Assembly: GCA_022821275.1 (NCBI GenBank)
Contig: JAJEDY010000022.1
Coordinates: 1 to 59,834 of the forward strand
DNA length: 59,834 bases
Origin: Candidatus Latescibacterota bacterium
GTDB taxonomy: Bacteria > Latescibacterota > UBA2968
Reading direction: 5' to 3'
Each line of letters opens with the position of its first letter. The stretch's first letter is position 1. Below, one piece after another: positions 26,906 through 29,870 of the stretch. Under the pieces are notes generated by a model, which worked only from the letters and a program-made list of their open reading frames with translations, did no database searches and had not been told where the DNA came from. Made by a program: the position numbers and the translations under genes.

Positions 26906-27478
26906 CTACCGCCCAATTTCAAAATCGCGCACCACAGCCTTTACCATCGCCACGAGCACATCGTTGTCGATACGCTCGCGATAATTGGGGTTAATATATT
27001 GAAATTGGATCTTGCGATTGGGTGCGATCACAAAGACCGATGGTACGGGCAAAGAGCGGTTTCTATTGTTTGTAAACGCAACGCCATAAGCCTTTGCTGC
27101 CTCAAATTCTACATCCGATAATAGCGCAAACTCGAGACCCACGCGATCGCGCACCTCAGCCAATTTTTCAGGCGGATCGGGCGCAATCGCAATAATTTCA
27201 AAACCCAAACCATCTAACTGTGACTTCAGTTCTTGCAGTTGTCCCAACTGCCGTCGGCAATGCGGTCACCAGTATCCGCGATAAAAAACCAAAATCGTCG
27301 GCTTTTTGTGCGCGCCCAGGTCAAAATCCCGTCCATTCGCATCGACGAGCATCAGCGCGGGAACTTCATCGCCAACCATCAGGGGATGCACTTTATTGGG
27401 CGCATCGGGCAATTGCGCGTGCCCCCATCCAAAAGAGCCACACACCACCAGCAATGCGATCCAGATTATTTTCTTCAT
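26906..27478 (-). CDS. Probable selenoprotein: exported peroxiredoxin-like protein with UxxC
   Basis: A single reading frame of 190 residues, interrupted only by an in-frame TGA at codon 71 (27266-27268). The text on both sides is continuous peroxiredoxin-like sequence: LVFYRGYW-TGA-PHCRRQLGQLQEL. Relatives have Cys at this place (FYRGYWCPHC), so TGA stands where the peroxidatic Cys of a CxxC site is expected, as in selenocysteine-containing Prx-like proteins. Cys74 is the resolving residue. An N-terminal signal peptide (MKKIIWIALLVVCGSFGWGHA) sends it to the periplasm. A 7-bp hairpin lies at SECIS distance downstream of the TGA. Without Sec insertion the product would be 70 residues and dead. 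No selA/B/C/D gene is in the window. Confidence 0.82.
27235..27251 (-). promoter_or_regulatory. Candidate bacterial SECIS hairpin
   Basis: On the minus strand GCAGTTG-GGA-CAACTGC forms a perfect 7-bp stem with a loop that starts with two G residues. The loop begins about 21 bases after the TGA at 27266-27268, within the usual bacterial SECIS distance (about 16-37 bases). Stem, G-rich apical loop and spacing all fit. Confidence 0.75.
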
Positions 27479-27508
27479 AAAAATCTCCTCTATATTAAAT
27501 AACGAACA

Positions 27509-29273: not shown

Positions 29274-29870
29274 TCAATTGTTTATTGTCTGTTGCGCTGC
29301 TTCCAGGAAAGTCGCATAGCTTCGTGTACCGCGAAACTTTCGGACAATCACACCTTTGGCATCAATAAAAATAGAGGTGGGAATGGCCGCAACCTCGTAT
29401 TCCCTGGCAACAGCTCCGTTTGAATCGAGAACAAATGTCCAGGAGAATCCGCGATCTCGGAGAAAATTCTGCACAGTGGAAAGCGATTCTCTAATATCAA
29501 TACCAACGATCAGGATACGATCGCCCATAGCCTGTTGCAGCTTTTCCATGTCGGGCATTTCGACACGACATGGCCCACACCATGTTGCCCAAAAGTTAAG
29601 GAAGACGGGCTTGCCGCGTTGTTCAGAAAGTTTGAAAGACTCACCGGTGATAGTTTTAAGGGTAAAATCGGGTGCTCTCTGCCCCATTTGAATACCAATA
29701 GGAACGGATGTAGCTGTTGTTTCCTGACTGGGAGATGGGACTGTTTGGCTGTCAGAAGAAGTTTGGCTGTCAGAAAGCAGGTCGGGAGATCGGGTCGGTT
29801 TCTGGTTTTTGCCACAGGCAACGACAAAAAACGCTAGCACAAGGATTAAACCGATGGATAGATATTTCAT
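29274..29870 (-). CDS. TlpA/ResA-like thioredoxin lipoprotein
   Basis: A 198-residue lipoprotein. The signal peptide ends with a lipobox (FFVVAC, Cys19). A Ser/Thr/Gln-rich linker (residues 25-55, with an SDSQT repeat) precedes a TlpA-like domain: GQRAPDFTLKTITGESFKLSEQRGKPVFLNFWATWCGPCRVEMP. The CGPC redox site lies near residue 97, and the cis-Pro segment is EVAAIPTSIFID. It would reduce disulfides at the outer face of the membrane, for example in cytochrome c maturation. It stands alone. Confidence 0.92.
   Translation of the reverse strand: MKYLSIGLILVLAFFVVACGKNQKPTRSPDLLSDSQTSSDSQTVPSPSQETTATSVPIGIQMGQRAPDFTLKTITGESFKLSEQRGKPVFLNFWATWCGPCRVEMPDMEKLQQAMGDRILIVGIDIRESLSTVQNFLRDRGFSWTFVLDSNGAVAREYEVAAIPTSIFIDAKGVIVRKFRGTRSYATFLEAAQQTINN

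Follow-up and report, generated by a model that had tools for sequence, protein, structure and literature searches.

Peroxiredoxin-like (Prx-like) selenoproteins with a UxxC motif have been described in the Sargasso Sea set (as 'Prx-like'; PMC1088965), in Geobacter and others (PMC1794560), and in GOS (as 'Prx-like 1', pfam00578; PMC2398784), and a 2026 catalogue includes a PF00578 UxxC class with thiol:disulfide oxidoreductase as the predicted activity (PMC13188914). In the literature searched, no report was found linking Latescibacterota with selenocysteine (Sec) or selenoproteins. The window analysed here is the whole 59,834-nt stretch of contig JAJEDY010000022.1 from a Candidatus Latescibacterota bacterium (GCA_022821275.1), and its gene at 26906..27478 on the minus strand very probably encodes a genuine selenoprotein (probability about 0.93). 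The sequence evidence shows an intact reading frame, a conserved TGA, sel genes, a covarying SECIS, selection and the fold family; that Sec is inserted, that the product is exported, and its catalytic roles and substrate are inferred. An earlier sequence-only reading had called this a probable new selenoprotein, which holds for the orthologous group and fails for the kind: UxxC PF00578 Prx-like proteins entered selenoprotein catalogues around 2005. New here are the orthologous group, the lineage in which it occurs and its predicted export, within a known selenoprotein class.

By domain and motif, the protein is likened to the Prx-like thiol:disulfide oxidoreductase selenoproteins (PF00578, UxxC/UxxU; e.g. 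WP_010940744.1), with which it has in common the domain family, a Sec-first UxxC, and a bacterial SECIS directly downstream. Redoxin family selenoproteins (PF08534, UxxC) have the same motif, and PF08534 also matches, but PF00578 scores higher here; peroxiredoxin-like family selenoproteins (cd02970) have an AhpC/TSA-type domain with Sec first, but in a UxxS rather than a UxxC motif. Profile similarity to SelL-related NF040769 (48.7 bits, cut-off 120) and to WAxxUGC_long NF041054 (27.9 bits, cut-off 300) was weak, the motifs differ, and both assignments were rejected. The Sec-peroxiredoxin encoded in the same genome (PxxxTxxU, contig 13:22523-22894) has the same fold, at 22% identity over 138 residues, but has its Sec three positions further on, in the peroxidatic column, where the present protein has Cys74; the present Sec71 replaces the Thr of that motif.

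The frame runs on the minus strand from an ATG at 27478 to a TAG ending at 26906 (190 codons), preceded by a Shine-Dalgarno-like GAGGAG (27485..27490, minus strand, 6 nt before the ATG). Its sole in-frame TGA is codon 71 (27266..27268, minus strand; context FYRGYW-U-PHC), predicted to be read as Sec and to form the first residue of UxxC, with Cys74 (27257..27259, minus strand) as the second. The uninterrupted 190-codon frame, the TGA at codon 71 and Cys74 had all been pointed out earlier without a strand, and all are present at the coordinates then claimed. The N-terminus looks like a Sec/SPase I signal peptide (27416..27478, minus strand; MKKIIWIALLVVCGSFGWGHA, followed by Q, with predicted A-Q cleavage), a prediction made by eye, in keeping with similar N-termini in orthologues and with low confidence for residues 1-27 in the AlphaFold2 model. 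The earlier description of a signal-peptide-bearing, Sec-decoded Prx-like protein with a SECIS is well supported, its signal peptide by eye. Other in-frame TGA candidates were listed in the window, none of them in a similar context.

The source genome (5.66 Mb, 97.5% complete) contains the SelA, SelB, SelD and tRNA-Sec genes that characterise the setting of a bacterial selenoprotein gene: SelB (388 bits) and SelA (584 bits) are encoded by adjoining genes on contig 71, and SelD (368 bits) is encoded on contig 84 next to a tRNA-Sec gene with anticodon TCA (70 bits). The selD gene itself has a TGA within its frame, where the encoded motif is CGGU. Among the carriers discussed below, SelA was not found in one genome (G031) and was present only as a fragment in another (G044). 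Phylum-wide, carriage of the gene and presence of SelA were weakly associated (14/16 vs 31/48, p=0.07), because SelA is present in most of the class.

The TGA-bearing gene was searched for in 64 genomes of the phylum, most of the genomes being metagenome assemblies. It was found in all 11 genomes of the genus (11/11, 73-96% identity); 5 further genomes of the class have TGA in the corresponding column (40-48% identity), and database records matching the genus copies were mostly labelled Candidatus Latescibacterota. The 37 more distant homologues sampled as TGA-less, most of them from Acidobacteriota and Bacteroidota, carry Cys in the TGA column, so that the UGA is both aligned with a homologue Cys and kept across species, and the C71 and C74 columns were invariant in alignment A3. 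In a 62-row tree, the 16 Sec rows of this group formed one clade (100/97), and Sec rows overall fell into three clades, and the supported branches require two or more changes; the exact number of Cys/Sec changes is unsure because of long branches. Gene order is fixed genus-wide, the selenoprotein gene lying between a gene weakly similar to Eco57I methylase and an MFS transporter gene. One TGA-bearing homologue (L040, genome G019, contig 67) is split across two frames, probably from an assembly indel or as a decayed copy.

A hairpin follows the TGA at 27235..27251 on the minus strand (GCAGTTG-GGA-CAACTGC, read from 27251 to 27235). The perfect 7-bp stem and G-first loop of the sequence-only reading were confirmed, with the correction that the roughly 21 bases given as the spacing are the distance to the loop, the stem starting 14 nt after the UGA. 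The published bSECIS model allows an apical loop of 3-9 nt that has a G in its first two positions and lies 16-37 nt from the UGA, a stem of 4-16 bp, and an MFE <= -7.5 (PMC13188914); the hairpin fits it, with a 3-nt loop (GGA), a 7-bp stem, a distance of 21 nt, and -10.4 kcal/mol over 48 nt. Taken as a single sequence, the hairpin was mildly unusual, a 7-bp stem arising in 3% of synonymous recodings (p=0.03), and folding energy alone was uninformative, 30% of synonymous recodings over 36 nt being equally stable; comparative evidence was therefore relied on. Across 14 distinct TGA-bearing sequences, the seven pairs were formed in 89.8% of cells (slid controls, 2-47%), 16 doubly changed cells over four pairs gave covariation, and in almost every TGA-bearing sequence the hairpin lay 13-14 nt after the UGA. 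A palindrome could be promoted by the encoded QLxQL/QLxEL repeat, and Cys homologues are the better control because they share similar residues; best stems averaged 6.4 bp in Sec sequences vs 4.0 bp in Cys homologues. The consensus hairpin was absent from homologue L039, and in homologue L030 a competing fold won when the UGA region was free to pair, the hairpin being optimal from +13 on. A Cys homologue from Pyrinomonadaceae (Acidobacteriota; L062) has a 6-bp hairpin at the exact SECIS offset, which could be a fossil SECIS after a Sec-to-Cys change, or chance.

Two other ways of reading the TGA were weighed. If it were a true stop, in a decayed gene or through sequencing error, translation would restart downstream, and an ORF beginning at a TTG after the TGA does exist; against this, the TGA is fixed throughout the genus and kept in the more distant genomes, the sel gene set is full, the SECIS covaries, and purifying selection is equal on both sides of the codon (dN/dS 0.17 over codons 25-70, 0.15 over codons 72-190). 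A ratio as low after the UGA as before it indicates that the downstream part is translated and selected, and a true stop is accordingly very improbable. The sequence-only reading had itself named absence of sel genes, and a TGA that was an error or a lone mutation in a decayed gene, as grounds for giving it up, and had proposed looking for selA, selB, selC and selD in the same genome and aligning homologues at codon 71; the sel genes are present, tRNA-Sec(UCA) included, and relatives conserve the TGA where distant homologues have Cys. The intact frame across the TGA would also fit a lineage in which UGA had come to encode a different amino acid, such as Trp or Cys, but UGA is an ordinary stop in 6/13 window genes checked, which points to selective recoding rather than a genome-wide change of code, the tRNA with a TCA anticodon is of the selenocysteine type and is accompanied by SelA, SelB and SelD, and the TGA column is Cys in homologues. 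Reassignment is hardly credible on these grounds, and decoding of UGA71 as Sec is the reading retained.

The protein matched Pfam AhpC-TSA (PF00578) at 94.4 bits over residues 35-159 (cut-off 26) and Redoxin (PF08534) at 69 bits, and no NCBIfam model scored above its own cut-off for the selenoprotein. An AlphaFold2 model (pLDDT 86) matched the folds of PrxQ/Bcp, AhpE and ResA, with residue 71 directly before the first long helix (72-90), where CxxC usually sits; FYRGYWUPHC has UxxC instead of CxxC. Alignment to Aeropyrum Bcp by phmmer and to the genome's own Sec-peroxiredoxin (FYPRASTGGU) by BLASTP put Cys74 in the peroxidatic column and Sec71 at the Ser/Thr of the S/TxxC motif of true peroxiredoxins. 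The earlier placement of the TGA at the peroxidatic position was therefore wrong, and assignment to the Sec-containing peroxiredoxins proper (PxxxTxxU) was rejected. Since Sec71 aligns with the Thr of TxxC, it is taken to open a UxxC site of the thioredoxin-like type. By sequence, the protein belongs to the class of Prx-like thiol:disulfide oxidoreductases (PF00578, UxxC), with that activity predicted.

SelB with Sec-tRNA-Sec(UCA) would bind the hairpin just after UGA71 and insert Sec, and the product, probably exported, would act as a thioredoxin-fold thiol:disulfide oxidoreductase or as a reductase of oxidised substrates. In thioredoxin-fold CxxC oxidoreductases, nucleophilic attack falls to the first Cys, and the second then resolves the mixed disulfide. 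By analogy with these enzymes, Sec71 would be the selenolate attacking a disulfide or oxidised thiol, and Cys74 the resolving thiol that yields a selenenylsulfide, to be re-reduced by a partner. That partner may be of the DsbD type, a hint and no more, taken from a DsbD_N-bearing relative in the same class. The main rival is a selenoprotein that works chiefly as a peroxidase, Sec71 or Cys74 reducing H2O2 or organic peroxides, as the best fold matches (the PrxQ/Bcp and AhpE peroxiredoxins) and the PF00578 and Redoxin profiles would suggest; yet the Prx PxxxT/SxxC motif is absent, the UxxC site resembles that of CxxC oxidoreductases, the close fold matches also include the thiol:disulfide oxidoreductase ResA, and a related Sec protein of the class carries a fused DsbD_N domain. 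A mainly peroxidatic role is thus rather unlikely, and the thiol:disulfide oxidoreductase role is somewhat favoured over it.

Standard gene callers are likely to truncate the protein at residue 70 or to place its start downstream of the UGA, and it would then be misannotated across the genus. With this gene, the catalogue gains an orthologous group whose SECIS is backed by covariation, in a phylum for which the literature searched yielded no selenoprotein report; understanding of Sec decoding is unchanged.

Family searches, which sample the selenoproteome of the source genome as a lower bound, returned at least six more genes for redox or Sec-pathway proteins that contain a TGA (the Sec-peroxiredoxin, a WAxxUGC ResA-like gene, selD, a GYGUPTC redoxin, a GYNUGTC redoxin, and a UGSC-family protein), and the lineage thus devotes selenium to several redox proteins, of which some seem to be exported. 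The class also has a second subfamily of Sec Prx-like proteins (L043-L048 and L050, genomes G041-G043 and G046-G049; FYRGFFU[GS]xC), with a lipoprotein-like N-terminus by look and its own hairpin 13 nt after the UGA. A third group (L042 and L051, genomes G058 and G059; FYRSASWUGFCR) is fused to DsbD_N (PF11412, 26.8 bits in L051), a hint of a link to DsbD-type electron transfer. A wider reading, offered tentatively and at less than even odds, would make Latescibacterota (most of the class) a previously unreported selenoprotein-rich lineage, in which the Cys-to-Sec change occurred in UxxC Prx-like proteins at least twice, probably three times, and which may have a dedicated selenium-dependent system for extracytoplasmic disulfide or peroxide handling.

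The WAxxUGC ResA-like gene, which has an in-frame TGA, is found a short way upstream of selD (contig 84:51000-54200), and the two form a small selenium cluster with the tRNA-Sec gene. The GYGUPTC and GYNUGTC proteins (L100, contig 21:2000-4500, and L101, contig 56:43300-45500, one motif or the other in each) have an N-terminal redoxin domain and repeat-bearing tails, with choice-of-anchor D repeats and a dockerin-like C-terminus in L100 (NCBIfam) and similar-looking repeats in L101; such surface-protein-like tails on selenoproteins look unusual. The UGSC-family selenoprotein (contig 81:18800-20800) scored 152 bits and contains a TGA. Within the window, about 1.8 kb from the selenoprotein gene, a TlpA/ResA-like protein with an ordinary WCGPC site is encoded at 29274-29870 on the minus strand.
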